The notes under the pieces: generated by a model
What the model was told of the DNA's origin: nothing
The model's input: the letters and a program-made list of their open reading frames with translations, nothing else
Databases searched by the model: none
Translations under genes and position numbers: made by a program
In this document: piece by piece, positions 1,898-33,338 of the stretch
Layout: every line of letters begins with the position of its first letter
Numbering within the stretch: the first letter of the stretch is position 1
IMG/VR virus record: IMGVR_UViG_3300009130_000037
Span: 1 to 58,416 of that record
Source of the DNA: a virus
Length of the DNA: 58,416 nt
Direction: 5' to 3' (one strand)

Positions 1898-1899
1898 TA

Positions 1900-2349: not shown

Positions 2350-2360
2350 AACATATAGAT

Positions 2361-2867: not shown

Positions 2868-2874
2868 TAGAATA

Positions 2875-13400: not shown

Positions 13401-14755
13401 TATCTATCTTCTATCCTGTAGAGTCTCCTATTAATGTAGAATTAAGAACAGGACGTAACTTCTCTAATATAGGGAATAGTTCTATTACAGCAGGAGGATC
13501 TAACGTAATTGATTGGTTTATTCCTAATGATGCATATCAATATGATGCTTTTCAGAACAGACAGCATGATAATATAATATTCGAATCTCTAGATTCTTTT
13601 AGGTATAATACATTTGAATTTGATAATAGAGTTCATGCATCTGATGTTAAAGTAAATGGAGAACCTGGAGATTCTTGGACATCCTTTAGACCTTTAGAGT
13701 TTTTAGATGTTGATGGAAACCACGGGCCTATTAATAAGATTATAACATTTAGAGATACATTACTATACTTCCAAGATAGTGCATTCGGTAACATAGCAGT
13801 TAACCCTAGAGTTTCTGTACAAGGTTCAGATGATGTACAAATGGAATTAGGAACAGGAAGGATACTTCATGACTTTAATTATGTTTCTACTACAATAGGC
13901 TCTAAACATCAATGGAGTGTAACTCAATCTCCTAACGCGGTATATTGGTTTAATATCTTAGATAAGAAAGCATATAGATACTTTGGAAGAGGAGCAGATG
14001 AATTAGTAGATATGAAAGGGATGCATAGTTACTTTACTACAACAGTAGAGAATGGACTATTAGCAGCTGATAATCCTCTAGACCACAATGGAGTACACAC
14101 TACTTATGATTATTTAAACAAAGAAGTATTATATACAGTTCTACAAAAGAATGCAATAGTTAAACGATTTACTATTGCTTTAAATGAAACTGTAGACGCA
14201 TGGACTTCTTTCTTTGACTTTACTCCTTATCATTATTTAAATAGTAAGACTAGATTATTATCTCCAAACCGTTCAGATGGAAATACTATCTGGATGCATA
14301 ATACAGGAGAGTATCAACAGTTCTATGGAACATACTTTGATCTTCAATTAGATATTATAACAAACCCTAAGTCAGATAAGACTAAAGTGTTTGATAATGT
14401 TAGCTTGCACACTAATGCTCGTAACATAAATAACTATAGCATAGATCAACTTACATTTGATTCCTTTAACTGCTTTACAGATTACCAGCATTCAGGGCCA
14501 ATATCATTTACTCCTGGAACCAATATTAAAAGGAAAGAGAGAGAATGGCAATTTGCTATCCCTAGGAATGTAATGACAGAGTCAAGTAGTAACTTAGATT
14601 TATTTGATTCTAATAACTATGACTATACTAAAACGTATAAAGATAGAATGAGAGATAAGTATATCACTCAGAAGTATACTAAAGCTGGTTCGGCAGAGTC
14701 TGATCAGTTTGTGATTAATTATATTAATACTCTATATAGAGTTAGTGATAGATAA
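10448..14755 (+). CDS. Muzzle / tail stabilisation-like protein (crAss-like)
   Basis: The protein has 1435 residues and is beta-rich throughout. It begins MGREQARNTFAKGMNQDTAY with a following FSAFNVRPT strand, a start typical of the large 'stabilisation protein' of crAss-like phages, seen structurally as the tail muzzle. Size, beta content, lack of catalytic motifs and position (after ring proteins, before cargo proteins and virion RNA polymerase) all fit. The C-terminus becomes helical and charged (KRKEREWQFAIPRN, then YKDRMRDKYITQKY). The call rests on order and N-terminal pattern. Confidence 0.65.
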   Translation: MGREQARNTFAKGMNQDTAYSIYNGEQYFSAFNVRPTTDDMGLSTGSLASVKGNSLDFTIPDVGDSWKLKALDTFVATNFDNTARFLDLTIGGINRQIPYQVTEPKVFYEVIADFINSGGYGASIPIVAQFSIGEIVIYTTDYSFLAPVFSTHLDFSTTLESPGATDLVVIGSVDLRESIIMCTAPSTANGSGQIWEVTWDINSVPTLRLVRNSGDNFAKEFPIEMKSRQETSTIRRVYWTDNENSVRTINIDSDTAYIDNIDILPSALMDIPIPIELHQAGGGLDVALYSVSYRLKSLGGAETSFSPFSPTFRITAGNEVTSAFVDYQGSPQHTATTKAITYRIDNIDSNFSFIDILVAEYDTAAPIYYLVKEGESLLGSSSYEFTIDTVTSEQIIDEAEILLPPASFAAAKTIDIKDNRLMVANIRDLDLSLSDWDSHAYRYNGSMGTDGYEATTNKINKFNKDSTRTSISTDQQKFQSDGVTLGASGANVNYKFITQDLQLDNLGGTGDIQNVLNTEIRYDVDKLQSDITLNSKILPMGGLWKNYSNPFFESWFKGYHRSEVYRFGIVFFDRKGRASAVKWISDIRMPDPSEVNTFTQTSSELLGHALGVEFDVTITADMKSTFTGFSIVRAHRGSADYTILAQGLIGDTTNELAYSDGTGGFPDVDENNPFSILIRSDRFLSYGQYAVNNIFKSFDGPMFKFFAPGALSGTKVRPIAGVSPSLYGIMNATDTPGGVAEDHGIYGKYYAVQNDGLGDHWYRDNTVADNQMNLSLAITDSIQIDQDLVPHREGIFTAGTGFEGFFNYKTIHDFGSTTNTAGFGTNEMTFRTICEPTLMLNTSNAFSTYTTNTRILGPTHISAADDGVWGATPGLALKEYPNANFVALASTLGYSNRLLANIYRELPNQYGGDTISSINNTEYITTGHYQSISDIDSSLTYTAQVYGGDTYINIYTESVGMANHERGGAAGNPYVPDENNARMVSIFYPVESPINVELRTGRNFSNIGNSSITAGGSNVIDWFIPNDAYQYDAFQNRQHDNIIFESLDSFRYNTFEFDNRVHASDVKVNGEPGDSWTSFRPLEFLDVDGNHGPINKIITFRDTLLYFQDSAFGNIAVNPRVSVQGSDDVQMELGTGRILHDFNYVSTTIGSKHQWSVTQSPNAVYWFNILDKKAYRYFGRGADELVDMKGMHSYFTTTVENGLLAADNPLDHNGVHTTYDYLNKEVLYTVLQKNAIVKRFTIALNETVDAWTSFFDFTPYHYLNSKTRLLSPNRSDGNTIWMHNTGEYQQFYGTYFDLQLDIITNPKSDKTKVFDNVSLHTNARNINNYSIDQLTFDSFNCFTDYQHSGPISFTPGTNIKRKEREWQFAIPRNVMTESSSNLDLFDSNNYDYTKTYKDRMRDKYITQKYTKAGSAESDQFVINYINTLYRVSDR

Positions 14756-14809: not shown

Positions 14810-17134
14810 ATGGGACTATTCGGTAGAGGAGCACTTAAAGATATAAATAAGTTAGGGTTAAATACTCTAGCAGCGCCTGCTGAAATGATAACAGGCCAAA
14901 ACTTATACAATCCTGATGTAGAAGGGAATGTAGCTAATGATATAGAACAAGTCCAAGAAGGAGTTACACAAGCTGGATCGGCTATGGTACCTATGGTAGC
15001 AGGAGCTGCATTAGGTCCAGTAGGAGGAATGGCTGTTGGAATGGGACGAGGAATGTTACCTTCTATGGGAGCATCTGCTAACGGAGGTGGATGGGATCCT
15101 AACAGTACAGGAGCAAAGATTGGACAATTCGCTGGAACTGCAGGCTCTCTTGCAATGATGGGAGGTCTCGGAGGAGGCGGTGGTGCTGCAGTAGAAGGAG
15201 CTGGAGGTTTTAGCTCAGGTGCTACAGATATGATGCCAGCATCAGGATTCGGTAGTGGACAACAAATAGGAAATTTTGGACAAAATATAAATCAAATGGG
15301 AATGACAGGAACACCTATGTTTCCTTTCGGAGGAGCACTTCCTTACGAAGGACAACAACAATTTACAGGCGGTAATTTAGCTGCATTTAATGGTCCATCT
15401 CATGAAGACGGTGGAATCAACTATCAAGGAAAAGCTGAGATAGAACTTAAAGAAACAGTAGATATGGAAGGTAACTATGTATACTCTGATAAGTTTATAG
15501 TTCCAGGATCAAAGAAGACTTTCGCTGAAGCTAGTAAGAAGTATAAAGGTAAAGATACAGATGACGATATCACAAAGAACACTAATAAGTTAATGTTGAA
15601 TAGACTTAAAGGGCAACAAGAAGAAATGCGTAAAGAGAAGTTCGAGAAAGAAGCTAAACGTCTTCAGAAAAAGAACGAGAAGTTTATGGCAGAGTATGGA
15701 GGACAGATTCCTCAATATCCTGAAGGAGGATTTATAGCAGATCCTAATATGGGTAATGTACCTAATTTCCAGAATACAGATCGAATGAGTAGAATAGGAA
15801 CTGTAGGAACTGCATGGGAGAAACCAGACTTTGGAAGTATGACTACTAAGAGTGGAAGAGGATGGACTCCAACACAAGCTGTTGAATTACAAAAGAGACA
15901 AGCTGATATAAATAGATTTAAGAACTATGTTAGACCTATGTATAATGAATCAGGTAGAGCTATAGATCCTAATGCAGTTGATGCTGAAGGAAAGAGACTT
16001 ATACCTAATAGTATGTATATGGATTATTTAGATGCAGTAGCATTTAGAAACGAGATGAATCCTGGGTCAGTTCCTAATACTGGAGGAAGTATAGAAGGAA
16101 CACAACTTAAACCACACGAACAGTTAATAGGGCCTAATATCTTAGGGACTCAAAACGTACAAGCTATTTCAACTAACAACGCTCCAGCATTCGAATATGG
16201 AGGTCATTTACCAACTACTGGTATTAACTATGGTGGAAAGAACTATGGAGGAGCAGGAGTAAACTACGGTGGAGGATTTACACAATATGCTTTTGGAGGG
16301 CCTTTATCTCCAGGTATGATGCAAGCAGCTACAGATGCTACAACTAATCCTTTCACAGGAGGAGCTTATCCTACGATGGGTTCTCCTAATATAGGAAGTG
16401 ATTACGTATCAGGATTACCAGAAGCTGACTTTAGTCAAGCAGGGTCTTATATTAATTCTCCAGTAATGAGAGATAGTAATATTCCTTCAGAAGCAAGCTA
16501 TACTAATGCACCTATGTCAGGAGGCCCTAGTAATAGAATGGGAGGAGGAGATGGATCAGGGTTTAATGTAAACCAAGCAGCTATGGCTGTACCAGGTTTA
16601 TTCGCATTAGCGCAAGGGATGCAGAAACCAGAATCATATATGCCTCAGGTTAATCCTCAATACTCAACTGCTATTAATCAAATGTCTAATAGACGATATG
16701 ATGCTCAGCCTGAGATAATGGCTGCTAAAAATGCACAAAGACAAGCAGGTACTCAAGCTAGGCAAGCTGCCGGTGGTAACGCTGCTCTTGAATTAGCTAT
16801 GGGACGTGGAGCGTTAGTAGATTATAATAGAGCAGAGAGACAAGCGTTAGCTAACCAAAACAATATGAACAATCAATATCTAGGAGAAGAAGCTAGATTT
16901 AGAGCAGGTATGGGAAGTGAGCACGCTAGAAACATGCAACATGCTTATGAAATGAACATGAGAGGAAGAGCTAAAGGTAGAGAATACATGCAGAAAGGAG
17001 CAGACTACATTGGAATGTTTGGACAACTAGGACAACAAAATCAAATATATAGAGATCTTATTGACACTGAATATGGTGGACTTAAGAATGGAGCTTACAA
17101 CAAAGTAGGTAGAAGAAATAGAAAATCTAAATAA
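14810..17134 (+). CDS. Internal virion (cargo-like) protein, Gly/Ala/Met-rich
   Basis: The protein has 774 residues. An N-terminal hydrophobic, glycine-zipper-like stretch (about residues 55-135; MVAGAALGPVGGMAVGMGRG, GGLGGGGGAAVEG) could insert into a membrane. Around residue 200 comes FNGPSHEDGGINYQGKAEIE with YVYSDKF and KTFAEASKKYK, a block I associate with virion proteins of Bacteroidota phages. A charged coiled-coil region (260-300) is followed by repeated Gly-Gly turns (YPEGGF, FEYGGHL, YGGAGVNYGGGF) and a helical Arg/Gln-rich C-terminus. Such proteins are packaged and ejected with DNA in crAss-like phages. The role is inferred from order and composition. Confidence 0.6.
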   Translation: MGLFGRGALKDINKLGLNTLAAPAEMITGQNLYNPDVEGNVANDIEQVQEGVTQAGSAMVPMVAGAALGPVGGMAVGMGRGMLPSMGASANGGGWDPNSTGAKIGQFAGTAGSLAMMGGLGGGGGAAVEGAGGFSSGATDMMPASGFGSGQQIGNFGQNINQMGMTGTPMFPFGGALPYEGQQQFTGGNLAAFNGPSHEDGGINYQGKAEIELKETVDMEGNYVYSDKFIVPGSKKTFAEASKKYKGKDTDDDITKNTNKLMLNRLKGQQEEMRKEKFEKEAKRLQKKNEKFMAEYGGQIPQYPEGGFIADPNMGNVPNFQNTDRMSRIGTVGTAWEKPDFGSMTTKSGRGWTPTQAVELQKRQADINRFKNYVRPMYNESGRAIDPNAVDAEGKRLIPNSMYMDYLDAVAFRNEMNPGSVPNTGGSIEGTQLKPHEQLIGPNILGTQNVQAISTNNAPAFEYGGHLPTTGINYGGKNYGGAGVNYGGGFTQYAFGGPLSPGMMQAATDATTNPFTGGAYPTMGSPNIGSDYVSGLPEADFSQAGSYINSPVMRDSNIPSEASYTNAPMSGGPSNRMGGGDGSGFNVNQAAMAVPGLFALAQGMQKPESYMPQVNPQYSTAINQMSNRRYDAQPEIMAAKNAQRQAGTQARQAAGGNAALELAMGRGALVDYNRAERQALANQNNMNNQYLGEEARFRAGMGSEHARNMQHAYEMNMRGRAKGREYMQKGADYIGMFGQLGQQNQIYRDLIDTEYGGLKNGAYNKVGRRNRKSK

Positions 17135-17140
17135 CACAAA

Positions 17141-19069
17141 ATGGGAGCAAACGCATTTGATAACATTTCACCTTTATTAAATTATCAACCTATACCTTAC
17201 CAAGCGATTCAACAATCTGCTCAGCGTATGCAGGATGTATCTGATGATGCGTTTAAACAAGCTGGAGCATTGGGAGATATAGAAGCAGATGTTTTATCTG
17301 CAGATGTAGCTGAACGTAATGCTATATTAGAAAGAGCGGAAGCAGCTCAAAGTAAAATCTATGACCTATATAAATCAGATCCAAGACAGGCTTTAGAGGA
17401 AGCTCGTAGACAAGGTACTGCTCTTAATAAAGAGTTGACTAGGGGTCGTCTTAAAACTATGATGGATAATAAGGCAGCAGCTACTGCTAATATGGCCGCT
17501 ATAGATAAACAATATGCAGCAGGAGAAATTACAGCTCAAGATGCAGAACAAGCTAAACAGATTGCTATGAACAGATATAAAGGTATAGGACAAAAAACCG
17601 AGTTTGGAACCTATGCTGCTTTTGATCCTTTTAAAGTATCTTTTATAGAAGAGCAACTCGCAGATCAAGGATCTGCATTTGCTAAAGGGTGGAAGTCAGA
17701 TAAGTATCCTTTAGGTTTAACTAAAACTTCATATGGATATATAAATAATTCTAATAAAGAACTTGTAGATCAAAATGAAGTTTATAGTGCTATAACTAGA
17801 CATTTAAAAAGTAAACCTGGAAATGTACAATACGCCAAACAACAAGCCGATTTTGCATTTGCAGGAGTAGACCCTAATACTCCAGGATTAGCGCAACAAA
17901 AAGAACAATTTATAGATAATATGTTTGCACAAGCTGCAGCTCCTACATCAGATAGAGAAGCATTTACAAAAGTAGATAGAAGTTTAAATAAAGATTGGCA
18001 GAAAGCAATGTATATGCAAGATGCTGTAGATAACCCAGTTATTCCTGATGCGCATGTAAGACATGGTACAGGAACTGCTACTGAAGACTCTATACCTAAG
18101 TTCTATAAAGATATGTCGTTTGATAAGTATGGTAACCCTAAAGCTGATGTAGAAATAAGCGCAGATAGAATGCCTTACCCTTCTGTCCCAGAAGCTAACT
18201 TAACAGATAGCCAAAGACAAGAACAAAACAAAGCTAGAGCTGAAGCTAGAAGAGAAAACGTAATAGCTAAAGGAAGAGAGATATATAATAAAGGGAAAGA
18301 GTTTGGAATAGACATAAAAGGAAAGACACCTCAACAAGTTAATGATATTATAAAGAAAGCTCATATGGATTATGGAGCTAAATCTACTACGTCTAGAATT
18401 ATACAAGATCCAGCATCTGCTAAGTCTATGGGAAGTATATTAGCTAATAACTTAGGTTCAGCTACATTCTATATCACTGAGCCAGGATCAGGTAAGGTTA
18501 TGAATGAAGATGGTGACTTTGACACTGTAGCTTCAGAACTTATGGGAGCATGGGGAGGAGCAACAGCGGGGCAAGAAGCAGATGCACTATCTTTAATAGA
18601 AGAAGTATTAAGAGGACCTGGTCAAACAGGATGGGACAGTAAAGGAAATCCGTACTTTGAAGTGACGGATGATAATGGAAAGAAAAGAATGATTAGTATG
18701 AGTGGTACAACAGAAGTTGAACCTTATGTTAAACCATATAAAATACTAAGCGAAGCTAGAGATAATCATCAACCAGTAGTACACTATGATCCAGATAATG
18801 GATTAGTAATGACATATCATCCAACCATTAAAGCTAATGGTAAATTTAGTGATGAAATAATAGTAACAATGACGGATGATGGACAACCTTTACCGGAGGG
18901 AGTACATCCAACAAGTCCTGAAGGACAACTATATTATAGTAAACAACGAGTAGCTACTAAAGATTTCAACTGGTTACAGAACGTAACGGAAGAAACTTTA
19001 AAGGATAAAGACTTACAAAGAGTAAGAAAAGTTACAAAAAGTCCTATTACTAGTTACACAGATGATTAA
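17141..19069 (+). CDS. Second internal virion (cargo-like) protein
   Basis: The protein has 642 residues and starts six bases after the previous stop. The N-terminal 170 residues are strongly helical and Ala/Gln-rich (ERAEAAQSKIYDLYKSD, QALEEARRQGTALNKEL), predicting a long coiled coil. The middle carries a low-complexity charged helix (QRQEQNKARAEARRENVIAK). The C-terminal part alternates strands and helices without a named motif. It sits between the first cargo-like protein and the virion RNA polymerase, the place where crAss-like phages encode capsid cargo ejected early in infection. No enzyme motif is seen. Confidence 0.55.
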   Translation: MGANAFDNISPLLNYQPIPYQAIQQSAQRMQDVSDDAFKQAGALGDIEADVLSADVAERNAILERAEAAQSKIYDLYKSDPRQALEEARRQGTALNKELTRGRLKTMMDNKAAATANMAAIDKQYAAGEITAQDAEQAKQIAMNRYKGIGQKTEFGTYAAFDPFKVSFIEEQLADQGSAFAKGWKSDKYPLGLTKTSYGYINNSNKELVDQNEVYSAITRHLKSKPGNVQYAKQQADFAFAGVDPNTPGLAQQKEQFIDNMFAQAAAPTSDREAFTKVDRSLNKDWQKAMYMQDAVDNPVIPDAHVRHGTGTATEDSIPKFYKDMSFDKYGNPKADVEISADRMPYPSVPEANLTDSQRQEQNKARAEARRENVIAKGREIYNKGKEFGIDIKGKTPQQVNDIIKKAHMDYGAKSTTSRIIQDPASAKSMGSILANNLGSATFYITEPGSGKVMNEDGDFDTVASELMGAWGGATAGQEADALSLIEEVLRGPGQTGWDSKGNPYFEVTDDNGKKRMISMSGTTEVEPYVKPYKILSEARDNHQPVVHYDPDNGLVMTYHPTIKANGKFSDEIIVTMTDDGQPLPEGVHPTSPEGQLYYSKQRVATKDFNWLQNVTEETLKDKDLQRVRKVTKSPITSYTDD

Positions 19070-19106: not shown

Positions 19107-22100
19107 ATGAGTAAGAAAAGTAATTCCGTTTCTATCGAAGATGTTTTTAAGAATACAAAGAGAACTAGATTAGATACAGCAACAAATGAAATACAAGAGG
19201 ACAAAGTGCCTTCACTTGATGATGTCTTTATCAAGACTAAAAAGAAAACTGTATTAGATGTTCCTACCTTTGGATCAGAACTAGATTACAATCTAGATTA
19301 TATGGAAGGTGTAAAACCTGAACAAGCTAAGTATGCTACTCAATTAAGAGGAAAGAGACAAAGTGCTGGAAGGCAAGCAGTTAATGTAGCTGGTCGTATC
19401 TTACCTAAGATTGGATTATCATTAGTAGAGAATGCTGGTTATGCTTTAGATTTAGAATCACATTGGAAGACTATTACAGGAGAAGGAGGAGCATACTCAA
19501 ATGCTCTAACTCAATTTGCTGATAGAGGAGTTGAAGCTATAGATGATTGGGCTCCTATATATAGAGAGAACCCAAATGAAGTATTTGACTTAGGAGATCC
19601 AGCTTGGTGGTTTCAGCATGGAGAAGGACTAGGCGTATCTATATCTTCATTCGCTTTGACAGGAGCAGGCCTAGGAAGTACATTTAGTAAAGGAGCTAAG
19701 TACCTAGGAAAGGCTTTAAAAGCAGGAGCAAACACGCAAAAAGCATTAAATGCAGGAGCACAGATATTAACTACTGGAGAACTTACTTATATAGAAAGTG
19801 CTATGGGAGGTGCCGAAGTACGTAAGAATATCATAGCAGAAGGGCTACAGAATATGCCTACTGATTTAACAGAGGCTGAATCTATATTATATCAACAGAA
19901 ATTAGTATCTGATGCTAATGAAGGAGCAGCCTTAGCTGTTAGACTTAATACTATTGTTAATGCACCATTAAACTTCGGAGCAGCTGGAGTATTAATGAAA
20001 GACCTTAAGACTACAAAAAGATTAAATTCTAAGTTTAGTAAGAACTCAGGGGAAAGTACTAAAGACTGGGCTACTAGATTAAAGACTGATCCATCTACAA
20101 GAGAGTTATCAGAGAATGTATTCAGAACTACTTTATCTGAAATGGGTAAAGAGTCTTTAGAAGAGATTGTAAATGAAGTAGCTGTTGGTGTAGGTGAGCA
20201 TAAAGGAAAGAAACTTCAAGGTTTATTAGACGATAAAGAAAAGCGAGGAGGTTATCTAGGAGCTGTATTAGAGACCCTGGGTAAAGATGAGACAGCTTTG
20301 TCTGCTATCTTAGGAGCAGTAGGTGGTGGAGGTCAACACTTTGTTACATCTAAGATGGGTAACAATAAAGAGAATAAACAACTCAAACAAGATATACATA
20401 ATAAACAATTAGATTTCTTAGTTAAGAAAGTAGATCAATTTCAATTAGCTCAAGATAACTTGGTGGCTGCGGCTGAAGAAGGAAACATTGCTAAATACTA
20501 TACAGCTCAAGAAGATCTATTCAAAGCTCAGGTATTTGATAGCTTCGTTAATGGAGGACAGGAACAGCTTACTTCTTTGTATTCAGAGATAGCAGAGTTA
20601 TCACCTGAAGAAGCAGAAGCAAAAGGACATGTAACTGATCCTAATCATGCTGACTACTATAAGAATAAAGCTAACGCTAAGATAGCAGAGATTAATACTC
20701 TATCTAAAGATTATGAAAATATTATGGCTCGTTACAATGAGAACGACCCAGAGGCTAATTTAGCTTCTTATGGAGAGCATATCTTTGCAATGCACCTAGA
20801 GAAGAAACAGTTAGAGAATAACCTAGAAAGAAATTTAAAAATCTTATCTGATCAAAAAGCTATTCATAAAAAGAACATGTCTCTTAGAGGTACAGAGCTT
20901 GGACTAGAAGATGCTCAACAAATGGCAACAGCTATTAAAGCTGGAGAAGAAGCATTAGCTGAAATAGATTCTAGAATAGCAGAAGTATCTAAACTTGATG
21001 CAAGAACTACATCTGGTAAACAGATACTTGCAGATAAATATGGTATGCCTCCTAAAGGAACTAGTAGAAAGGCTCATGCTATCAATAAGATAAAGCAAGC
21101 AAAGAAAGTACAAGAAGCGAAGGTATCTGCTAACGCTATCAAACTTAAGAAAGACAAGGCAGAGTTTATAAAAAATGAAGATGGAACTGAAGAGAGTTGG
21201 ATTAAAGCAATGAAGCAGACATCTGCTGAACGAGATGCTTTAGTTAATACTCTTAAACAAATAGACGCTTCAAGAGCTCAATTAGAAGTTATGGACCAGA
21301 CATATGAAGATTTTACTTCGAAAGAGGGAAGAGACGCACATGTCAAAGAATCACAGAAGACTAATGAGAAGAGAAGACAAGAAAAAGAAACTGAAGATAA
21401 AAAGCAACGAGATACTGAATCTGTCGCAAAGGAAACAGCTAAAAGAGAAGCAGTCAAAGAAAAGAAGAGAGAACAAGAGAGAGCGAAAGCAGAACAAGCT
21501 AAACCTACAGAACCTAGTACAGAAGCACCAACCGAAGGTCCACTTACTGAGGAGGAAATTGAAGCTATCTCATTGGTGTCTCCAGAAGAAGCTGAAGCGC
21601 AGAGAGCTGCTGAAGGAGGGACACCGTTGCTTACGGAGGAAGAAGTTGACATTATTGAAGCCGAGGAAACGGTACCTGTAGAAGCAAAAGAAGATGGAGA
21701 TGTAGAGAATGTATCTGATACTCAATCAAGTAAAGCAACAGAACAAGAACCTTCCAGGGCTATTACTGTTGACAAGGTGATAGAAGCTGGGACTACATTT
21801 GCATACCTTTCAAAAGAGTATGGAGATGCAGAAGGAGTTAAGAAATCAACAACTAATGAGAAGAATGAATCTCTTCACAAACCTTTAGAGTCATCTAAAG
21901 AGTTTCAAGTAGGAGATGAAGTTACATTAGAAATAGATAAGACAGCAACATGGACAGATAAGGATGGACAGACTAGGTCATATAATGACTTTGTATCTCC
22001 TGATGGATCTGTAGATATAGCAAATGTACCAATAGGTATTAAAAAAGGAAACGAAGTAGTAGCTCACGTACGTACACAGGACTGGTTAAATCAGAAAGAC

Positions 22101-25100
22101 GAGAGTGGAACTTATTCAAATATAGCAACTAGTGAAGATAGCGAGCACCCTTTATATGATAATGGACCGAAGCAAATTGAAATTAATCAACGTATTAGAG
22201 AAGCGGTGGTTTCAACTGGTTCTATTAGCGTTAAGATAACTAATAAGAGTAATGGACATATCTCTAAGAATGTAGATGGTAAAGCACTACTTAGTGCTGC
22301 CATGCCTAACATTAAAACTTTTACAGTTGTAAAGGATGGAGAGTTCTATGTAAACAAAGATGAGATATATTCTAATCTTTCATTAGTTAACAGTACTGAA
22401 TTTCAAGATAACTTAAATGATTACAGTGGTATAGTATTCGCTGAGTTACCTACCCCAGTAAGAGGTAAAGCTTTGATGGTACCATTAAGTATACCTACAC
22501 TATCTACTGACCAAGTTGATACTATATATAATGCAATAGTATCTCATTATAAAGATAACAAAGAGGTATCTACTAAAGTCTTTGAAGAAGCTGGTTTTGA
22601 TATTAGAACTAACACAGGTCTTCTATCTTTATTACAACAGATAACTCATACAGTAGATGAGAAAGAAAGTGATTTCGAAGAGAGAGTATCTAAAGAGGGC
22701 CCATTAAGTGCTCGTCATCTTAATGTATCAACTAAGACAGGATTAATATCTTATGCTAAACATAATAAAGGTATTCACACTATCTCATCTTTAACCGACT
22801 TAGTTAATCAAGCAGAAGACTTTAAAGAGTTTTTATCAGAGAAATTATTCTCAGTAAGACTATCAGAGATTAATGGAACTGATGAGGTATCTGAAGTAAC
22901 TATCAGTAATGATAATCAAGTAACAACTAAACTTAATGCATCTTATAATGAGTACATTAAATCTAAGTTATCTACTAACCTTATCTCTACTCCAATAAAC
23001 GAAACTGAAGATTCATACTTTGATCAACCAGTTATCCAATTTGATACTAATTTCTTAGAGACTAGCCCTATAGAAAAAACTGAAGAGAAGCTAGAAGAAA
23101 AAGAACAAGAAGAATCTAAACCTAGTGATAACATATCTGAAGATGATATCAATGATATATTTGGATTTGACAGCTATATTGATTATACCCTGGGTACTGA
23201 TGATTCAGTAACTGACTATACATTAGATGAAGATAAGAAATCTTTAATAAGAGAAAGCCTTGAAGGGTTTTTAGTAGTGGATTCTGAATCAGGTATACCT
23301 TATAATACATACAAGCAAACACAAGTAATCGATTCTATTATAGAATTAACTGTAAAAGGATTACAAAATAAACAACCGCTACAGGAATCTATAGAGGCAG
23401 CTAAGAAAGTATTCGAACAAAGATCTACAATGTTAGCTCGTATCGAAGATAACTTCTCTACTATCGATCCTGCTATTAAAACAAAGTTAAATTTAACTAC
23501 AGTTGATGATGCTGCTGAACTTAAAGACGAGTTCGATAAAGTATTACGTAACTGGGATGAGTTTAAAGACCATGCTTCTGCAAAACTTGCAAAGATCTTT
23601 GGTGTTAAAGAAACAATAGAGGACTCACAGGATGCACAGGCAATAGAAGATTCTCTATCTGCATATGAGAACTTAGAGTCTATGTTAGAGAAGATATCTT
23701 TTGATGATGGAGCTACATTCCAAACTAATCATAAGGACACTGCATCTGCAAGGTTTAAGCTATTCTTAGCTCTTCAGGAAAATACTTCACGTAACTTCTT
23801 GAACCTGAAATCATTTATACCATTTGATACAGTATACGATGACTTACAAATGTTATTAGCAGGTACAGAACCTAACTATGATGCAATGGTAGCTAAGCTT
23901 GCATTAGAAGGAGCAGGTAAACCATACATTCCTACATTGATATCTAGATTAGAGAATCAATCTGAACAGATTAAAAATGAGTTTGTAGTAGCTTTCTCTA
24001 AACAATATAATCCATACATTACAGTTCTTTGGGCCCGTAATAGAAAAGACGGCTCATACCAACTACAACCTATTGATACAAATAGAAACTCTGTAGTAAA
24101 ACGTATTGAAGCTTACTGGTTAAACAACCAAAAGACATCTGACATAGTTAAGACTGTAGGAGGAGAGCTTACTATTAATGAAGTTAAAGCAGAAGAATTT
24201 AAAGGTAAGGTAGAGGCAATGGCTGCCTCTAAACCTACCGCAGAAGGTATACAAGAGCTGTTATCTTCTATTGGTATTGATATGCCTATTGAAGCAATAA
24301 ACTACCTAGGAACTAACTCTAAGAGGTTAACAGGGATGGATTTCTCACAGCACTTCACATCAGGTATCTTTAATAGAATGGCGAAAGCTTTAACTATGAA
24401 AAATAAGAATACTGAAGTAGAGTCTAAGTTAGATCTTAATAATCCTTTAACCGGGACTAATAAAGAAGGATCTAGTATTAAGATATTGGCCACATTAACA
24501 GCGCAGTTTAACCCATCTATATACTCTAACTCTCACAGAGATAGTGAAGGAAAGACTATATACTCTTACTCTTTAAATAGTCACTTATCTCATACTATGA
24601 GAAGACTATTAGAGAATGAAGGGAACAATGGATTAACAAATGGATTAGCTAATCTTTCTTTTACTAAGAACTCTTTATGGTTACGTCAAATACAAAAGGA
24701 TTCTAAGTTTAGAAACACATTCAAGATCAGCTACTTAGATGGAATAAACAAAAGATACTCTAATCAAAAAGGAGTTAAGAGAAAGAATCAATCTGATAGA
24801 GAGATGGAAATGCAATCACTTGCTCTCTTCCAAAATCAAAACCAGGGTGAAGCTGGAGGACGTAAAGTTTCTCACTTTGTATACCCTACTATATCAGATA
24901 AGACTACCACTCCTATCATCACAGCTATACGTCACAATGTAGAAGTGTTAATGGAAGATGATCTATCTTACACATTAGGTGGAGGGACTAGAAAAGAGAT
25001 CCTTAATATAGTTAGAGGAGAGATGAATCGTATCGAAAACTATAAAGCACCTTCGAAAGATAATGCTATTAAAGGATATGATAATGGAGGAGCTACCAAG

Positions 25101-28100
25101 TTCTTCACATTTCCAGGACTAAATGAAATAGCTCAGATAGTTGAGAAAGAAGATGGTACTAGATTAATAACAAATAGAGCAGAAGTTGAAGCTGCAGTTA
25201 TTAATCACGTTAAAGCATTAGCAGAGAATACTGTTACATCATGGAAAGAATCTGGTATCGTATCAGATAATTCTCTTATGATGGATAAGTCATATATAAT
25301 GGCAGCAAGGTCTGCACTACGTAAGCCTAACAATAATAAGCTTGCTTTATATGCTGCTTTAGATCTAGAGATTAACTACATCATAGCAAACGCTAATGTG
25401 TTACAGTTAATTACAGGGGACCCTGCACTTCACTTTAAGAAGAATGTTGAGACTACTTTAATAGATGTACAAAAGAGATTAGCAAAAGATATAGCTCCAG
25501 GATTAGATGGAAACTTTAAGAACGATAAGTATAAGACTGTATACTTAAATGATAAAGAAACAAACTCTCAACACCTAGAACAATATAAAACTGTATTAGG
25601 AGAGAAAGCATCTGCTTATACTGGTATGGAAGGAACTGATGCTCAAGAGTATACAACATTACAAGAACATTTAGATGTAATGAATGCTTATGGGAAGTTA
25701 TCTCCTGAACAATATAAGCGTATGAGTAATGCTAAAACTCTTTCAGCAGAAGATCTTAAAGTTGTATTACAACCTATGAAGCCAGTATTTGTAGGTAACG
25801 ATGTTATACCATCAAGTGATGTTAACAAGATATCATATATCAAATCATCTAGTTATCCATTAATCCCTCAATTAACTAAGGGTCTAGAAATAGATAAGTT
25901 AAGAAAGGCAATGGAGTCTGAAGATATAGCAAGAGCTGCATATGTATCAGCTGCTAAACTAGGAACAACTAAGAGAGTAGATATATGGGATGGAGATAGC
26001 TTAGATTCTAAGTTCTCTTTAAAAGATAAAGCAGTTACATTAAGTAGAACTGGTTTCCGTATTCAACAAGAGGTACCATATAAAGAATCTAAAGATAAGA
26101 TTCTAACAGTATCTCAAATGAACAAACTTCTATTTGAGGGAATCCTGGGTATTGAAGGTATGCCAGCATTAAAGACAAGAAAAGAAGAAATAAGAATGTC
26201 TTTATTCGAATCAGGGAAGAAAGAATTATTCACTAAACTTGGAGCTGACTCTAACGGGAAGTTCAAAGATCTTTCTAAAGTTAAGAAAGCACTAGAGCAA
26301 GAAGCTAAGTCTAGAGGATATTCTATAAACGATATTCAATCATTAGAATTAACAGAAGATAAGAAGTCATTCAGAATACCATTAGCTTTTAATGCTAGTG
26401 CTAAGAAGTTTGAATCTCTGTTATTATCTATGGTAACTAACACGATACTCAAACAAAAGATGCCTGGTAAATCTTATGTTCAAGGGTCTTCAGCAGGGTT
26501 CTTAACTGGAACAACTTCTTCTAAAGAATGGAGTGAGTTGACTGAGTCAGATCTAGGGGGAATAATCTGGACAGGAGATGTGAATATGGACAAAGGATTA
26601 CAATTCGTAAGAAAGGAAGGCGGAAAGGTTCGAGGAGCGCAACTCCTTGTTCCTTTTTACTTCAGAGATGCCGATGGTAAAATGTTAAATATGAAAGATT
26701 ATACTACAACAGTAGATGGTAAAACTTTCATAGATGATAATAAGATTGATCCTGCATTACGTAACTTAATTGGAGCGCGTATTCCTAACCAAGGACACTC
26801 TTCAATGTTACCTATTGAGATAGTAGGGTATGTACCTGAATCTATGGGAGACCTTATTATAGTACCGGATGAGATTACTAAACAGATGGGATCTGATTTT
26901 GATGTTGATAAGTTATTTACTTACCACTATAACTATAATGTAGGAGAAGATGGTTCTTTAACTAAAATACCAACAGATGAAACAGTAGCAGGATTACAAA
27001 ATGAATACATTGATATTCACTGGAATGTATTAACTACTCCAGAAGTATTACCTAGAATATTAGCTCCATTAGATCAAACAGGAGCTCACTCTGTAGCAGG
27101 GGAAGCTGACCTTATTAATGATATAAGAACACAAAATGCTACTCAGCATTCTTTCTTATATAGAAAGGAACAACAAAAAGGATTTATTCAGAATCGTTCT
27201 GGAAAGTCTGGAGTTGCTATCTTCTCATTAGCTTCTACATTTAATGCTACAATACAAGATAAAGATCTTAAATATGGTAAATACTTTAAGGGAGAGTATG
27301 TTCCTTTATATATTAATTTTAAAGGATTAAAACTAACTAACCTTAGTGGTAAGGGAAAGAACCCAATAGCTGATAAAGCTGCTGTTATTTCTGATATGCA
27401 ATCAGCTGCGGTTGATAATGCGAAAGAACAAAGATTAGATAAACTTAATCTTAACGATCATACATTTGCAGCTGCAACTGCTTTAGCTCAACTGGAGACT
27501 GAAGAAGGAAAGAACGTTGATATCCAATACATATCAAGACTTCTTTCTCAGCAAGTTATCCAGGACTACGTTAAAGAACTAGAAGCTTTAAATGATACTA
27601 CTATAGAGGAGTTTGTTTCTGATAAGAAAGAAGAAGCATTCTTCAGAGCATCTAAAAAGTATAGAGCATTAGTTGGAGAAAGTAAAGAGAACTATGATAA
27701 GTATGTAAAAGAAGCTCCATTATTATCTCCTAGTCTTATGTTACAAATGATTAAGGATGAAGGTAATAAAGATGCTTACTGGGCAGGTTTACAGTTAAAG
27801 GCTTTAAAAGTATTTAGAGAACTTGATGATATAGGAGCTCAGATGACACAGATTAAAAGTGCAATCAATGCTGACTCTCAAGGAGCCGGTAAAGATCTAT
27901 TAGCTGTGTCTGATAAAGTACAACGTATAGCAGAACTACATAAGTTACCTTCAGTCCAAGGTGCCACAGAGCTTTTAAATACAGAGAAGGAAGTAGGGAA
28001 AGCAGTTTCTTTAGGACCTATACTAGCTAACAATGTATATGCACCTTTATTCCCATATGATAGTTATTCATTCAAAGAACTTAAAAGATCTATTGCATCT

Positions 28101-31100
28101 CTTACAGGTAGAGAAGCTTTAACTGTAGAGAAACAAGATGAACTATTCAATCACTTAAGAGGGTTTATGTACTCTACTGATGGTATGTTCTCTGAGACAG
28201 AGACTGCAATTGAAAGAAATAGATTATTAATCGATACTAAAGACAACAAGTCATTAGCTACTCGTGTAGAGGAAGCTCAGCAATCATGGGGTAAGAATAA
28301 CTTCTTATTACAAAGACTTGCAGCTAGACATCCAGAGAAGAAAGGATCATTTAGTCTAGTAACATATATTGCATCTGCAGGCGCTCGTCTAGATGAATCA
28401 GAAGCTATTAAGTCATTCGTTGATATGATGATATCAGAAGACCCAGTTCAAAATGAATTAGCAGTTGACTTAGTTACATACTCATACTTAACAGCTGCAT
28501 CTCAAGGAGCTACTAACTTTATGAAGTTCATTCCAACTACTTACCTTAAGTCTAAGGGAGTAGGAGAGAAACTTAATGGTATAGAATGGGAAGCAGGTAT
28601 TGGATTAGATATCTTTAGAAGACAGTACTTCCAACATAACCCTAGTGTAACACCTAAGGCACCTGAAGATATTCCAGCTACTGAAGGATTTATAGTACCT
28701 GCAGTTTCAGATGAGATGGAACAGAAGTATAACAATATGTTAATCGAAATGGAGATATACCCAGGTGAGTTCATCACGGGTTATCCACCATTCGTACATA
28801 TTAGAAACACAGATACTAACTCTTATAACTTATATGAGTTAACTCCTAACGTAGATTCTTCTTTTACTTATAATAGAATAAGTACACTAGGAGGAGAGAG
28901 AGGATTAATGGAATATAATAGAAGTTCTTCATTAGCTACTTCTCTATTAGAAAGTAATAGACCTAAAGTACAAAAGCAATTGGAATCTAATGTTCCATCT
29001 GCCTCATATGAAGAAGGAATAGATAACCCAGAAGCTAATACTAACTTGTTAAAGAAGTATAACCTTAAGACCGGAGATGGTAAAGGGCCTGTAGTTAGAG
29101 CACTGTATACTATTATGGGAGAGTCTACTAACACAGGACATAGATTAGTAGCTGAGATAATGGCCAAGAATGCTGATAACTTACCTACACTTACATTCTC
29201 TTCTAAGAATGAGAAAGGTAAAGGATACTTCAGACAAGGAGGAAGAATATTAAACGTTAATGTATCTAAAATAGATAGTGCAAATGAATTTGAGAAAGTA
29301 TTCTTACATGAATTATTACATGGTTATACTTCTCATATAGTTAAAGCACCAGGTAAAGCGGTAGCTCAAGGACATAAAAATCCTTTAAACGCGGCGCAAG
29401 ATAGAGCATTAAAATCTATTGAGGCCCTGCAGAAAAAAGCAATCACTAGCCTTAATAAGGAAGATAAAGAAGGCTTTAAAGCATTCGCTAAGAAATATAG
29501 AGCTTGGGAGAAAGACACATCTAAAGGACTAGATGCTACGACAACAGAGTTTGATAAGTTTTATGGTCTTATTAAGACAGAGGAGTTTATCACATTAACA
29601 ATGACAAATGAAAACTTCCAGAAGTTCTTAAACAATATTCCATTCACAGGAGAGACTACTTTATTAGATAGATTTGTAGAGATTATATCTAAGTTATTTA
29701 AAGCTATCTCTCAACAATTAGGAGTAGAAGTAAATGATAACAGTATATTACCTCATGCTATCAAAGAGATCACTAATATGATAGAGAGTACAACGTCATT
29801 AAGTGAAGGACAAGGAAATGACTATAGTATATTTAATAACAATGAGTATGCAGCTAAGCAAGCATTAACTACTACTAAACACCTAAGAGCAGAATTTGGT
29901 TTAATCAATAGCTCTGGGTTGAATAAGAAGTTAACTTTTGAACAAGCTTCAAAGAAAGCTAAAGCATTAAATACTACTAATAAGAAATTCCAATCTAAAT
30001 ATGGAAGTACTTATGAAGCTAAGTCTACTAAGATACCAGGGGAGCCAGGAGATAGTAAGACATATTGGAATGTAACATTTACACCTAAATCTTCTCAAGT
30101 AGATTACTCTATAGAGACAGGAAAGAAAACTGATCCTTCTATCGATACTCTTATTAAAAGAATCGAATCTAGAATAATTAGTTATAAGCATGCTATGAGT
30201 GATGCTAAAGCTGACAAGTCTGTATATAAAGATAAGATAGAAGTTCTAGAAAGACAGATAGAGAAGTTAGAAGCTACTAACAACCTTAAATCTGTAGAGC
30301 TTATCGCTAAGTCTCACTTAGACTGGGTAGATCAAATCTTAGATAAAAAGAAAATATCACCATCTGAAATAAGAGAGGCTGATACGGCTATTGCTGTATG
30401 GCAAGATCTTAAACGTATCTTCCAAGAGGAGTATGAAGAGGGTGGAAAGTTTAAAGAGACTATAGCATCTATTACTAATAGAGCTGATGACTTACAATTA
30501 AGATGGGGATCTGTAGCTAAGCAAGCTATGATCGTAGAAGCTAATAAGAATAGTACTAGAGAAGTTAAACTTAAGCACTTAGAGTTAATGAAAGACATTA
30601 GCATGAGTCCTAGTTTATTATTAGACTTATCTAGTTATGATAATGAGTTCACTCAATCTTTAGATAACATCTTAAAGAGATCAGCAAGAGATACTAACTA
30701 TGAGTTTAACGAATGGTCTAAGACTATTAACACAGCTATAGAAGAGTTCCAAGCTACTGATGAATATAAGAAGAACAAGTTCGAAAAGTTATTACAGAAA
30801 GATAAAGATGGTAACTGGACAGGACATTTAACTATCCGTTATTCTCAAGATCTATACGATGAAAGAGCTAAGAGACAAAGAAAACTTAATAACTCTAAGA
30901 AGACTAAGAAAGACTTCAAAGATTATTACAGATGGAAGAAAGTAAATGAAGTAGCTATTGATAGTAGATTATTATTCTCTGAGGATGGAAAACTACAAAG
31001 TACTCCTAAAGCTGGTGAACATAAAGCTGCTTTAGAGAAAGAGTTTGGTGTAGAAAGAACTCAGGAATTAATAGATAGAGCTCAAGAGAAATTCCAAAAC

Positions 31101-33338
31101 TATCTTGATGATAAAGAAGCATTCATCTTAGAGTTAGAGAACAGAAAGGAAATCAACCCAGAGTATACAGAAAAGAATTATGATAATGATTTAAGATCTT
31201 GGGTTATACGTAACTCCCCTAAATCTTATTTAGCATCTTACGAAGGGTCTAACATAAGTAGTGAAGCTAAGGGATGGGAATACGTTGTTACAGTTCCTAA
31301 GAAGGTATATGATAGTGGTCGTAAAACTCCATGGTATGACAGTAACTTTGAAGAGATAAACAACAACCCTGAATTGAAAAAGTTCTATGACTTCTTTAGA
31401 GATACTTTATCTCATATGATGGCAGAACTTCCTACGTATGAAACTTATAACTTACAAGCTAACTTCTTACCGGTTATGAAGAAGAACTTAGCAGAGGCAT
31501 TTGGTAAGGGAGATATGAAAGGAGCACTAGCTAACTTGAATAGTAGCTTAGTAGATGAACTTACATCAGGAGAGTCTCAAATCTCAGCTGATAGAGATAT
31601 TCATACTGGAAGAGTTAACAAACGTATCCCGGTAGGATTCACTAAAGAGACTAGTGCTATTAATGAAAGAACTAAAGATCTAGGTAAAATGTTAGAAGCA
31701 TTTACTATGATGTCTTTAAACTATAAACATAAAGCTAAAGTAGAAGATACAGTATTACTTATGCAAAGAGTTATAAATGAAGCTGTTGAGCAACAAGTTA
31801 ACTCTAAGAAAGAAGCTGTAACTGATGCTAAAGGAAACTTATACCAAATCAAAGATGGTTTAACTAATCTTAAGAAGGTTGTTTCTCATGCAGTAGATGC
31901 TCAGATCTATAATGACAAACGTGAAGAGGGAACTCCAACTGGTGTTTTATTAAGTGAGCAAGGTATTAAAGCGTCTATTAAAGCAACCTCTTTAAATAAG
32001 AAGATTAAGAAGTACAACAGAGAGTTAGCTATGGGTAGAATGACTGATGAAGCTCACTCTATTATAACTAAGCCATTACAAGAAGAGCTATCTAAACTAG
32101 GAGGTAGAAATGTAACTAACGTTGATATAGCTGATGCTACAATGAAGATTACTCAAATGAAAGGAATGGGATATAATATATTTGCCTCTGCGAATAACAT
32201 GACTTTCGGACTTATATCTAATATATTACAAGCAGCAGGAGGAGAAGACTTTACATTAAAAGAATCTATGCAAGCTTATAAGATGATGTTATCTTCTACT
32301 AGTAAAAGTTTAGGATACAGTAACAATGCAGGTAAGAAGATAGCTGCTCTTATGGAGAAGTTTGATGTCTTATTCGAAGTTAATGAGGCTGCATACAATG
32401 GATCAGATAGACGTAAGTCTGTTGGATTATCTAAGTTCAATCCTTATGAACTACAAAGAAGATCAGAGTACTTTGTACAAGGACAGAATATGGTAGCTAG
32501 AATGCTTAACGAGAAAGTTAAAACATTAGATGGCCAAGAAACTAGTTTATTCGAAGCATTCGATGTAAACGGTAAATGGAGAGCTGATGTATATGGAGAA
32601 CACAAAGGATGGGATGGAGACATCAGTACTGAAGGAGACTTAAAAGAGTTTAAGAAATTCCAGGACAGATTAATAGCTATCAATAAGGTTGCACACGGTA
32701 ACTACGATCCTGCATCATTCCCAATGGCTAAGCGTTATATCTTTGGTAGATTCGCATTACAATTTAGATCATGGTTAGCAGAATCATGGGAAAGAAGAAT
32801 GGGAGATGAGAAGTATAATGAGCAGTTAGGAAGAAACGTTAAAGGATTCTATAGATCTATAGGAGAGAACTCTAAGGTATTCCTTAAGTTAGCTCTTATG
32901 CAGAAAGATGGATTGACATCATTGTCTCCAGTAGATCAAGCTAACCTTAAGAAAGGAATGGTAGAGATGATTGTTATCTTAGGTACTATGGCAGCAGGTC
33001 TTATGGTTAAGAGTTTAGGAGATGACGATGATGATGACAAGATGGTAACTAACTTACTATTGAATCAAATCTATAGACTTGAATCAGATATGACTTTCTA
33101 CTTAAGTCCTGGGTCTTTCAATAGAATATTATCTAGTCCTATCCCTGCAATTAGAACTTATCTAGATGCAGAGAAAGCTATCTCGAGTACTATGTCTTAT
33201 ATGGTACAGTCAGTTGACTTAGACGGTCGTAAGAAGATGTCTAATGAAGATGTGTTTAACAAGTGGGCTAAAGTATTCCCATTCATTAATCAAACTGTTA
33301 AATTTAAAACACAGTCTGAGAAAGTTTTTAATAATTAA
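19107..33338 (+). CDS. Giant virion polyprotein: RNA polymerase plus zincin domain
   Basis: The protein has 4743 residues in one uninterrupted frame. Residues 170-220 hold a hydrophobic, Gly/Ala-rich region. A charged coiled coil and a Pro/Glu-rich linker cover about 750-850, and a second acidic linker lies near 1320-1355. The RNA polymerase core is visible. KQKMPGKSYVQGSS (near 2450) fits the first barrel. ARIPNQGHSSMLPIEIVGY followed by KQMGSDFDVDKLF places the metal-binding DFDVD at 2597-2601, equivalent to the DFDID/DFDGD motif of crAss-like virion and multisubunit polymerases. A zincin motif HELLHGYTSH lies at 3401-3410. Long helical regions follow, and a hydrophobic segment (VEMIVILGTMAAGLMV, about 4618-4633) precedes a run of Asp. 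In relatives the packaged enzyme transcribes early genes after ejection. The strand ends with a terminator. Confidence 0.85.
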   Translation: MSKKSNSVSIEDVFKNTKRTRLDTATNEIQEDKVPSLDDVFIKTKKKTVLDVPTFGSELDYNLDYMEGVKPEQAKYATQLRGKRQSAGRQAVNVAGRILPKIGLSLVENAGYALDLESHWKTITGEGGAYSNALTQFADRGVEAIDDWAPIYRENPNEVFDLGDPAWWFQHGEGLGVSISSFALTGAGLGSTFSKGAKYLGKALKAGANTQKALNAGAQILTTGELTYIESAMGGAEVRKNIIAEGLQNMPTDLTEAESILYQQKLVSDANEGAALAVRLNTIVNAPLNFGAAGVLMKDLKTTKRLNSKFSKNSGESTKDWATRLKTDPSTRELSENVFRTTLSEMGKESLEEIVNEVAVGVGEHKGKKLQGLLDDKEKRGGYLGAVLETLGKDETALSAILGAVGGGGQHFVTSKMGNNKENKQLKQDIHNKQLDFLVKKVDQFQLAQDNLVAAAEEGNIAKYYTAQEDLFKAQVFDSFVNGGQEQLTSLYSEIAELSPEEAEAKGHVTDPNHADYYKNKANAKIAEINTLSKDYENIMARYNENDPEANLASYGEHIFAMHLEKKQLENNLERNLKILSDQKAIHKKNMSLRGTELGLEDAQQMATAIKAGEEALAEIDSRIAEVSKLDARTTSGKQILADKYGMPPKGTSRKAHAINKIKQAKKVQEAKVSANAIKLKKDKAEFIKNEDGTEESWIKAMKQTSAERDALVNTLKQIDASRAQLEVMDQTYEDFTSKEGRDAHVKESQKTNEKRRQEKETEDKKQRDTESVAKETAKREAVKEKKREQERAKAEQAKPTEPSTEAPTEGPLTEEEIEAISLVSPEEAEAQRAAEGGTPLLTEEEVDIIEAEETVPVEAKEDGDVENVSDTQSSKATEQEPSRAITVDKVIEAGTTFAYLSKEYGDAEGVKKSTTNEKNESLHKPLESSKEFQVGDEVTLEIDKTATWTDKDGQTRSYNDFVSPDGSVDIANVPIGIKKGNEVVAHVRTQDWLNQKDESGTYSNIATSEDSEHPLYDNGPKQIEINQRIREAVVSTGSISVKITNKSNGHISKNVDGKALLSAAMPNIKTFTVVKDGEFYVNKDEIYSNLSLVNSTEFQDNLNDYSGIVFAELPTPVRGKALMVPLSIPTLSTDQVDTIYNAIVSHYKDNKEVSTKVFEEAGFDIRTNTGLLSLLQQITHTVDEKESDFEERVSKEGPLSARHLNVSTKTGLISYAKHNKGIHTISSLTDLVNQAEDFKEFLSEKLFSVRLSEINGTDEVSEVTISNDNQVTTKLNASYNEYIKSKLSTNLISTPINETEDSYFDQPVIQFDTNFLETSPIEKTEEKLEEKEQEESKPSDNISEDDINDIFGFDSYIDYTLGTDDSVTDYTLDEDKKSLIRESLEGFLVVDSESGIPYNTYKQTQVIDSIIELTVKGLQNKQPLQESIEAAKKVFEQRSTMLARIEDNFSTIDPAIKTKLNLTTVDDAAELKDEFDKVLRNWDEFKDHASAKLAKIFGVKETIEDSQDAQAIEDSLSAYENLESMLEKISFDDGATFQTNHKDTASARFKLFLALQENTSRNFLNLKSFIPFDTVYDDLQMLLAGTEPNYDAMVAKLALEGAGKPYIPTLISRLENQSEQIKNEFVVAFSKQYNPYITVLWARNRKDGSYQLQPIDTNRNSVVKRIEAYWLNNQKTSDIVKTVGGELTINEVKAEEFKGKVEAMAASKPTAEGIQELLSSIGIDMPIEAINYLGTNSKRLTGMDFSQHFTSGIFNRMAKALTMKNKNTEVESKLDLNNPLTGTNKEGSSIKILATLTAQFNPSIYSNSHRDSEGKTIYSYSLNSHLSHTMRRLLENEGNNGLTNGLANLSFTKNSLWLRQIQKDSKFRNTFKISYLDGINKRYSNQKGVKRKNQSDREMEMQSLALFQNQNQGEAGGRKVSHFVYPTISDKTTTPIITAIRHNVEVLMEDDLSYTLGGGTRKEILNIVRGEMNRIENYKAPSKDNAIKGYDNGGATKFFTFPGLNEIAQIVEKEDGTRLITNRAEVEAAVINHVKALAENTVTSWKESGIVSDNSLMMDKSYIMAARSALRKPNNNKLALYAALDLEINYIIANANVLQLITGDPALHFKKNVETTLIDVQKRLAKDIAPGLDGNFKNDKYKTVYLNDKETNSQHLEQYKTVLGEKASAYTGMEGTDAQEYTTLQEHLDVMNAYGKLSPEQYKRMSNAKTLSAEDLKVVLQPMKPVFVGNDVIPSSDVNKISYIKSSSYPLIPQLTKGLEIDKLRKAMESEDIARAAYVSAAKLGTTKRVDIWDGDSLDSKFSLKDKAVTLSRTGFRIQQEVPYKESKDKILTVSQMNKLLFEGILGIEGMPALKTRKEEIRMSLFESGKKELFTKLGADSNGKFKDLSKVKKALEQEAKSRGYSINDIQSLELTEDKKSFRIPLAFNASAKKFESLLLSMVTNTILKQKMPGKSYVQGSSAGFLTGTTSSKEWSELTESDLGGIIWTGDVNMDKGLQFVRKEGGKVRGAQLLVPFYFRDADGKMLNMKDYTTTVDGKTFIDDNKIDPALRNLIGARIPNQGHSSMLPIEIVGYVPESMGDLIIVPDEITKQMGSDFDVDKLFTYHYNYNVGEDGSLTKIPTDETVAGLQNEYIDIHWNVLTTPEVLPRILAPLDQTGAHSVAGEADLINDIRTQNATQHSFLYRKEQQKGFIQNRSGKSGVAIFSLASTFNATIQDKDLKYGKYFKGEYVPLYINFKGLKLTNLSGKGKNPIADKAAVISDMQSAAVDNAKEQRLDKLNLNDHTFAAATALAQLETEEGKNVDIQYISRLLSQQVIQDYVKELEALNDTTIEEFVSDKKEEAFFRASKKYRALVGESKENYDKYVKEAPLLSPSLMLQMIKDEGNKDAYWAGLQLKALKVFRELDDIGAQMTQIKSAINADSQGAGKDLLAVSDKVQRIAELHKLPSVQGATELLNTEKEVGKAVSLGPILANNVYAPLFPYDSYSFKELKRSIASLTGREALTVEKQDELFNHLRGFMYSTDGMFSETETAIERNRLLIDTKDNKSLATRVEEAQQSWGKNNFLLQRLAARHPEKKGSFSLVTYIASAGARLDESEAIKSFVDMMISEDPVQNELAVDLVTYSYLTAASQGATNFMKFIPTTYLKSKGVGEKLNGIEWEAGIGLDIFRRQYFQHNPSVTPKAPEDIPATEGFIVPAVSDEMEQKYNNMLIEMEIYPGEFITGYPPFVHIRNTDTNSYNLYELTPNVDSSFTYNRISTLGGERGLMEYNRSSSLATSLLESNRPKVQKQLESNVPSASYEEGIDNPEANTNLLKKYNLKTGDGKGPVVRALYTIMGESTNTGHRLVAEIMAKNADNLPTLTFSSKNEKGKGYFRQGGRILNVNVSKIDSANEFEKVFLHELLHGYTSHIVKAPGKAVAQGHKNPLNAAQDRALKSIEALQKKAITSLNKEDKEGFKAFAKKYRAWEKDTSKGLDATTTEFDKFYGLIKTEEFITLTMTNENFQKFLNNIPFTGETTLLDRFVEIISKLFKAISQQLGVEVNDNSILPHAIKEITNMIESTTSLSEGQGNDYSIFNNNEYAAKQALTTTKHLRAEFGLINSSGLNKKLTFEQASKKAKALNTTNKKFQSKYGSTYEAKSTKIPGEPGDSKTYWNVTFTPKSSQVDYSIETGKKTDPSIDTLIKRIESRIISYKHAMSDAKADKSVYKDKIEVLERQIEKLEATNNLKSVELIAKSHLDWVDQILDKKKISPSEIREADTAIAVWQDLKRIFQEEYEEGGKFKETIASITNRADDLQLRWGSVAKQAMIVEANKNSTREVKLKHLELMKDISMSPSLLLDLSSYDNEFTQSLDNILKRSARDTNYEFNEWSKTINTAIEEFQATDEYKKNKFEKLLQKDKDGNWTGHLTIRYSQDLYDERAKRQRKLNNSKKTKKDFKDYYRWKKVNEVAIDSRLLFSEDGKLQSTPKAGEHKAALEKEFGVERTQELIDRAQEKFQNYLDDKEAFILELENRKEINPEYTEKNYDNDLRSWVIRNSPKSYLASYEGSNISSEAKGWEYVVTVPKKVYDSGRKTPWYDSNFEEINNNPELKKFYDFFRDTLSHMMAELPTYETYNLQANFLPVMKKNLAEAFGKGDMKGALANLNSSLVDELTSGESQISADRDIHTGRVNKRIPVGFTKETSAINERTKDLGKMLEAFTMMSLNYKHKAKVEDTVLLMQRVINEAVEQQVNSKKEAVTDAKGNLYQIKDGLTNLKKVVSHAVDAQIYNDKREEGTPTGVLLSEQGIKASIKATSLNKKIKKYNRELAMGRMTDEAHSIITKPLQEELSKLGGRNVTNVDIADATMKITQMKGMGYNIFASANNMTFGLISNILQAAGGEDFTLKESMQAYKMMLSSTSKSLGYSNNAGKKIAALMEKFDVLFEVNEAAYNGSDRRKSVGLSKFNPYELQRRSEYFVQGQNMVARMLNEKVKTLDGQETSLFEAFDVNGKWRADVYGEHKGWDGDISTEGDLKEFKKFQDRLIAINKVAHGNYDPASFPMAKRYIFGRFALQFRSWLAESWERRMGDEKYNEQLGRNVKGFYRSIGENSKVFLKLALMQKDGLTSLSPVDQANLKKGMVEMIVILGTMAAGLMVKSLGDDDDDDKMVTNLLLNQIYRLESDMTFYLSPGSFNRILSSPIPAIRTYLDAEKAISSTMSYMVQSVDLDGRKKMSNEDVFNKWAKVFPFINQTVKFKTQSEKVFNN

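Follow-up and report, generated by a model that had tools for sequence, protein, structure and literature searches.

Phages must move megadaltons of folded enzyme in the right order down a tail whose channel measures only a few nanometres across. A single gene (positions 19107–33338, plus strand, as are all the modules and upstream genes located below) in a 58.4-kb virus record, whose whole stretch of 58,416 nucleotides is referred to here as the window, bears on how this is done. By ORF and cysteine count, the gene encodes one protein of 4743 amino acids and 531 kDa that has no cysteine, and the frame is open from ATG to stop without interruption, as the first-pass annotation had reported. 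A megablast search of phages gave no match for the window sequence, the sole blastn match was 91 bases long, and a Pfam search of the protein gave no significant match. The nearest relative is L005, which shares 59% identity in the core, has at least 5114 amino acids and is truncated at its 5′ end. Amino acid identity between the two is 39–68% across blocks of 300 residues, and the substitutions follow a single coding frame across the whole gene. Because third codon positions differ most and second positions least in every such block, the length of 4743 codons is, judging from this comparison, neither a chance opening nor an assembly join. Apart from L005, seven more chains proved complete and in one frame.

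As to what this frame encodes, HMMs cut from the protein and iterated matched three consecutive phi14:2 genes in the same order, and the modules along the chain are an N module, a polymerase, a zinc metalloprotease-like (zincin) domain and a C module. The gene is thus, on profile matches, phi14:2 g067, g066 and g065 joined in order. The N module (residues 60–620; 19284–20966), the g067 homologue, is matched through HMMs N1 and N2 at E<1e-4 and contains a hydrophobic stretch at residues 175–193 (hydropathy). Sequence and profiles place two polar linkers, residues 725–946 and 1262–1367, around a region designated M1 (residues 880–1340), the whole spanning 21279–23207. The C module (residues 3640–4743; 30024–33335) has by profiles its homologues in phi14:2 g065, crAss001-type gp49 and Fpv1 gp34, with a hydrophobic helix at residues 4619–4637 (hydropathy); HMMs Z, Zc and C3 match g065. 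At the N-terminus (window 19131–19247) a short motif is repeated (SIEDVFKNTKRT, SLDDVFIKTKKK), which may serve as a packaging signal. Directly upstream of the giant gene lies a 642-aa protein without cysteine (17141–19069), preceded by a 774-aa protein also without cysteine (14810–17134), both candidate cargo by position and cysteine count, and before these a homologue of the tail muzzle protein crAss001 gp44 (10448–14755; 7qok_A, E 4.4e-43); a muzzle homologue followed by the cargo block is a trait of Crassvirales. Elsewhere in the window, a protein at 40728–41633 starts like a signal peptide and ends in what by eye resembles a Bacteroidota secretion sorting domain, with no Pfam match for the protein.

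The polymerase, homologous to phi14:2 g066 by sequence and profile matches (profiles R1, core and R3), occupies residues ~1440–3293 (23424–28985), its end (residues 3127–3293) showing a weak likeness to residues 1860–2127 of 6vr4, the structure of phi14:2 gp66. This structure is the only PDB sequence match, at E 2.6e-33 with the single sequence and 2.6e-155 with a profile. An AlphaFold model of the core (residues 1930–3110; 24894–28436), built from 50 related sequences, has a mean pLDDT of 87.4 and a pTM of 0.84, and contains both double-psi barrels and the helices that follow. It matches 6vr4_A with a Foldseek E of 2.2e-43 and superposes with Z 30.2 and an rmsd of 4.5 over 1061 residues, the next structural matches, RNA-interference polymerases and the phage polymerase P74 gp62, standing at about Z 10. 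Both barrel signatures are where the first-pass annotation had put them: SYVQGSS of the first barrel at residues 2456–2462 (26472–26492), immediately preceded by a conserved K.K..G, and SDFDVDKLF with the catalytic DxDxD of the second at residues 2596–2604 (26892–26918). The DxDxD is invariant in 50 relatives; the valine that had drawn attention in DFDVD is real but ordinary, this being the commonest form among 76 matches in relatives (45/76, with DFDID in 21/76). We conclude from sequence and model that the protein carries a two-barrel crAss-like virion RNA polymerase of the phi14:2 gp66 family. It is indeed fused on both sides, to the N module before it and to the zincin and C module after it, while in phi14:2 the polymerase is a protein of its own (2180 aa). 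The giant protein would presumably be packaged in the virion of this uncultured phage, and its polymerase would transcribe early genes in the host.

The domain at residues 3305–3565 (29019–29801) is a predicted zincin of gluzincin type, on the basis of its motif. H3401, E3402, H3405 and E3493, an HExxH with a downstream glutamate, are invariant in 48 sequences, and HExxH is present in 73 of 79 ORFs. Its best structural matches are gluzincins, with a Z of only 7.4, and Foldseek gave no match for the domain at E<0.001. The profile matches an internal virion protein (9sfn_G, E 9e-14), a tetrameric ejection protein (8vb2_A, E 2e-7) and a virion RNA polymerase (11fw_A, E 5e-6), HExxH being kept in all three; the length of 11fw and the position of its HExxH agree with N4 polymerase residues 1007–3500 as described (PMC12633501), and in the gene of N4 the motif reads HELVH, at residue 2228. 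As side observations, the N protein of cr112_1, a close relative of crAss001, gp6 (L086:13713–20681), has a zincin-like HEAFH, so that the zincin may shift place within the chain, and extra copies occur elsewhere in the chain at L023:4937–19078, L053:16741–22539, L083:19365–22694 and L031:338–7666.

It is tempting to take the fusion as the mark of this phage, as the first-pass annotation did. The relatives speak against this. Of the first 85 loci, over 50 have polymerase and N module fused, and gp33 of Flavobacterium phage Fpv1 is a 4401-aa version of the protein. Across 154 related loci the module order is constant and the gene breaks shift, a set of 80 related loci presenting all-in-one genes, N-to-zincin genes with a separate C, separate N with polymerase-to-C, and three genes. 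In an 85-row tree, a quick one with some weak branches, at least eight changes of state are counted at the break between N module and polymerase and at least nine at the break before the C module; like break types recur in separate parts of this tree, so fusion itself is no rare event. In four loci (L067, L068, L070, L083) the polymerase gene itself is split. The ~900-base insertion there was considered as an intron between the barrels, and this was rejected: the break lies upstream of both barrels, the second half holds both, and a ferritin-like ORF lies between the halves (L067:11803–12276, L068:11902–12387, L070:11920–12396, L083:11305–11805). L063:3869–19864 and L039:2870–16360 have long insertions, in frame and close to the polymerase core; the L063 chain is without cysteine.

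What does follow the breaks is cysteine. At 164 of 174 breaks, a count of joints in loci related to each other and so not of independent events, there is a cysteine at the C-terminal end of the upstream protein and at the N-terminal end of the downstream one, versus facing cysteines in 8 of 199 control pairs of neighbouring genes. A first survey found both facing ends so equipped at 79 of 83 joints; with the criterion fixed beforehand, 85 of 91 joints fit in 70 new loci, counted after removal of duplicates from 79 fetched with a phi14:2- and crAss001-type query. The outer ends of the chains have none (0/236). Inside the chains, cysteine is depleted ~50-fold (87 in 464,562 and 44 in 344,072 residues, versus 0.87% and 0.70% in other genes). 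Among complete chains, those without a break have no cysteine in eight of eight cases, the 4743-aa protein included, while those with one break have at least two and those with two breaks at least four. Most joints have one cysteine per side, about half of the one-break chains have extra ones, and a locus counted with three breaks has three. Several of the ten joints that depart from the rule are broken reading frames (L057, L117, L121, L148). The break inside the polymerase in the four split loci is likewise flanked by a facing pair.

The rule extends to cultured and distant phages. In crAss001, gp47 ends in RCNS, gp50 begins with MSKRC and has another cysteine nine residues from its end, and gp49 begins with MAKKC and has no C-terminal cysteine. 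Suoliviridae member cr4_1 also fits, and crAss002 does by half: gp32 ends in VCS, and the first cysteine of gp33 comes only at residue 35. A cyanobacterial phage, Leptolyngbya phage Lbo-JY46 (L169:4723–17629), fits too: it has a C-module homologue and two giant neighbour proteins with one cysteine each at the facing ends; a simple pattern search found no DxDxD at this locus. Two other causes were considered and rejected. One is translational coupling: crAss001 and DAC15 fit the rule with an N gene that runs on the opposite strand, and in crAss001 this placement excludes gene adjacency and translation alike as the explanation. Another is a nucleotide signal: the terminal cysteine codons TGT and TGC are used roughly as in the genomes at large and the flanking bases vary, which points to selection on the residue. 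The literature searched, outside which lie the phi14:2 polymerase paper and the 2018 paper on the crAss-like family, contained no mention that the cargo of crAss-like phages has cysteines at its ends or disulfides, and as far as that literature goes, the link between breaks and facing terminal cysteines is undescribed.

Our reading, to which we give a probability of roughly 0.7, is that the whole ejected cargo is one covalent chain, fused in the phage described here and made of probably disulfide-joined pieces in its split relatives. The gene would encode the entire transcription cargo, with the N module probably first out and membrane-active. In split relatives the cysteines at facing ends would probably be bonded in the virion, making the two forms equivalent. 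One continuous, nearly cysteine-free string would then be threaded partly unfolded through portal and tail, refold in the host and transcribe early genes, its pieces being released in the cytoplasm by reduction or by the zincin. Cysteine would have been purged elsewhere in the chain, perhaps against wrong pairs. The bacterial cytoplasm is reducing, so the disulfides would have to form late or outside. In crAss001, the tail and portal vertex contain disulfides, and partial unfolding of the cargo on tail passage has been proposed (PMC10172136). Of the earlier suggestion that a machine of this size must be unfolded or cut to leave the capsid, partial unfolding thus agrees with what is proposed for crAss001; cutting is only possible, the zincin being conserved, and the cysteine pattern favours a continuous chain. 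We also lean toward the general form of this reading, in which the transcription cargo of crAss-like phages and of some relatives leaves as a single covalent string in every case, facing cysteines restoring continuity through a host-reducible disulfide and fusion and stapling being interchangeable.

The same zincin suggests a different view, of a polyprotein that it cuts in the virion or after entry, freeing the polymerase from the N and C modules. Zincin processing of multidomain injected proteins has been proposed (PMC5512222), the HExxH...E is invariant in 48 sequences despite their divergence, and the domain has homologues in the N4-type virion polymerase and other ejection proteins. We nevertheless consider this view rather unlikely. 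The zincin persists in phi14:2 g065 and in the crAss001 type, in which the modules are encoded apart to begin with, so it must do more than separate them; HExxH is missing from L040, a fused chain; recombinant N4 polymerase of full length, HExxH included, was purified intact for cryo-EM (PMC12633501); and no cleavage site was found in the 4743-aa chain. It is also conceivable, given that there is mostly one cysteine per side and that other partners can be imagined, that the terminal cysteines do not join subunits, serving instead to bind metal, to form homodimers, or to attach to the portal or a different part of the capsid. This we hold to be unlikely: cysteines are confined to facing ends, their number follows the breaks (0, 2, 4), the new break inside the polymerase has a pair as well, and docking would neither need a facing pair nor disappear upon fusion. 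Finally, that there is no single chain at all, with separate genes concealed by starts inside the frame or by an error of sequencing or assembly, is highly improbable, as a raw count of eight SD-like sequences followed by ATG inside the frame stands against continuous coding constraint, a similar all-in-one frame in eight other genomes, and the cysteine that relatives' separate subunits nearly always have in their first residues, whose absence from the 4743-aa chain means that it has no start of that type.

If the one-chain reading is true, fusion and disulfide stapling are two interchangeable ways of keeping several proteins in order while they are threaded through a narrow tail. For gut and environmental phages of a very abundant group, the cysteine rule would then be a simple answer that can be tested. 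It would explain the free fusing and splitting of genes in the cargo block and, in genomes without annotation, allow cargo proteins to be recognized from their sequence, as proteins nearly free of cysteine except at facing ends.

In terms of known systems, the closest comparison is phi14:2, whose gp66 (PDB 6VR4), g067 and g065 are alike in polymerase fold, catalytic motif and module order, with the zincin in g065 and hydrophobic stretches in g067 and g065 as in the 4743-aa protein; the difference is that phi14:2 has three genes with cysteines at the facing ends and this phage one cysteine-free gene. The nearest cultured relative of the polymerase is Fpv1 gp33, whose sole annotation is virion structural protein (PHROG 16227), in a phage that its record does not class in Crassvirales; N module, polymerase and zincin are fused in it, whereas the C module has a gene of its own, gp34, with a terminal cysteine pair at the joint. 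In Bacteroides phage crAss001, the equivalent three parts are gp47, gp50 and gp49, detected in virions by mass spectrometry (PMC10172136), in three genes, that for N on the opposite strand. The giant, fused two-barrel virion RNA polymerase gp96 of Thermus phage P23-45 (5002 aa; PMC10770324) is joined to a tail tape measure protein and belongs to a distant polymerase lineage. As crAss-like polymerase genes reach ~6000 aa (reviewed in PMC10136315) and multidomain transcription proteins have been described (PMC7886860), the fused gene alone belongs to a known kind, here complete and cysteine-free. The virion RNA polymerase of coliphage N4 (Schitoviridae) shares the order of N domain, polymerase, zincin and C domain in one gene, and its zincin is homologous (E 5e-6), but its polymerase is of the unrelated T7-like fold; the two-barrel core described here, not being of that single-subunit type, is not a member of the N4 type, though alike in layout. 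No cysteine occurs in the 3008 residues of the N4 polymerase that were read, nor in the N4 ejected proteins within the sequence read; the absence of cysteine in N4-like polymerases was already known (PMC2784036, PMC4837373) and already tied to entry (PMC2784036). That the N4-type polymerase and other ejection proteins share this zincin, even beside a polymerase of unrelated fold, suggests that delivery follows a common layout.
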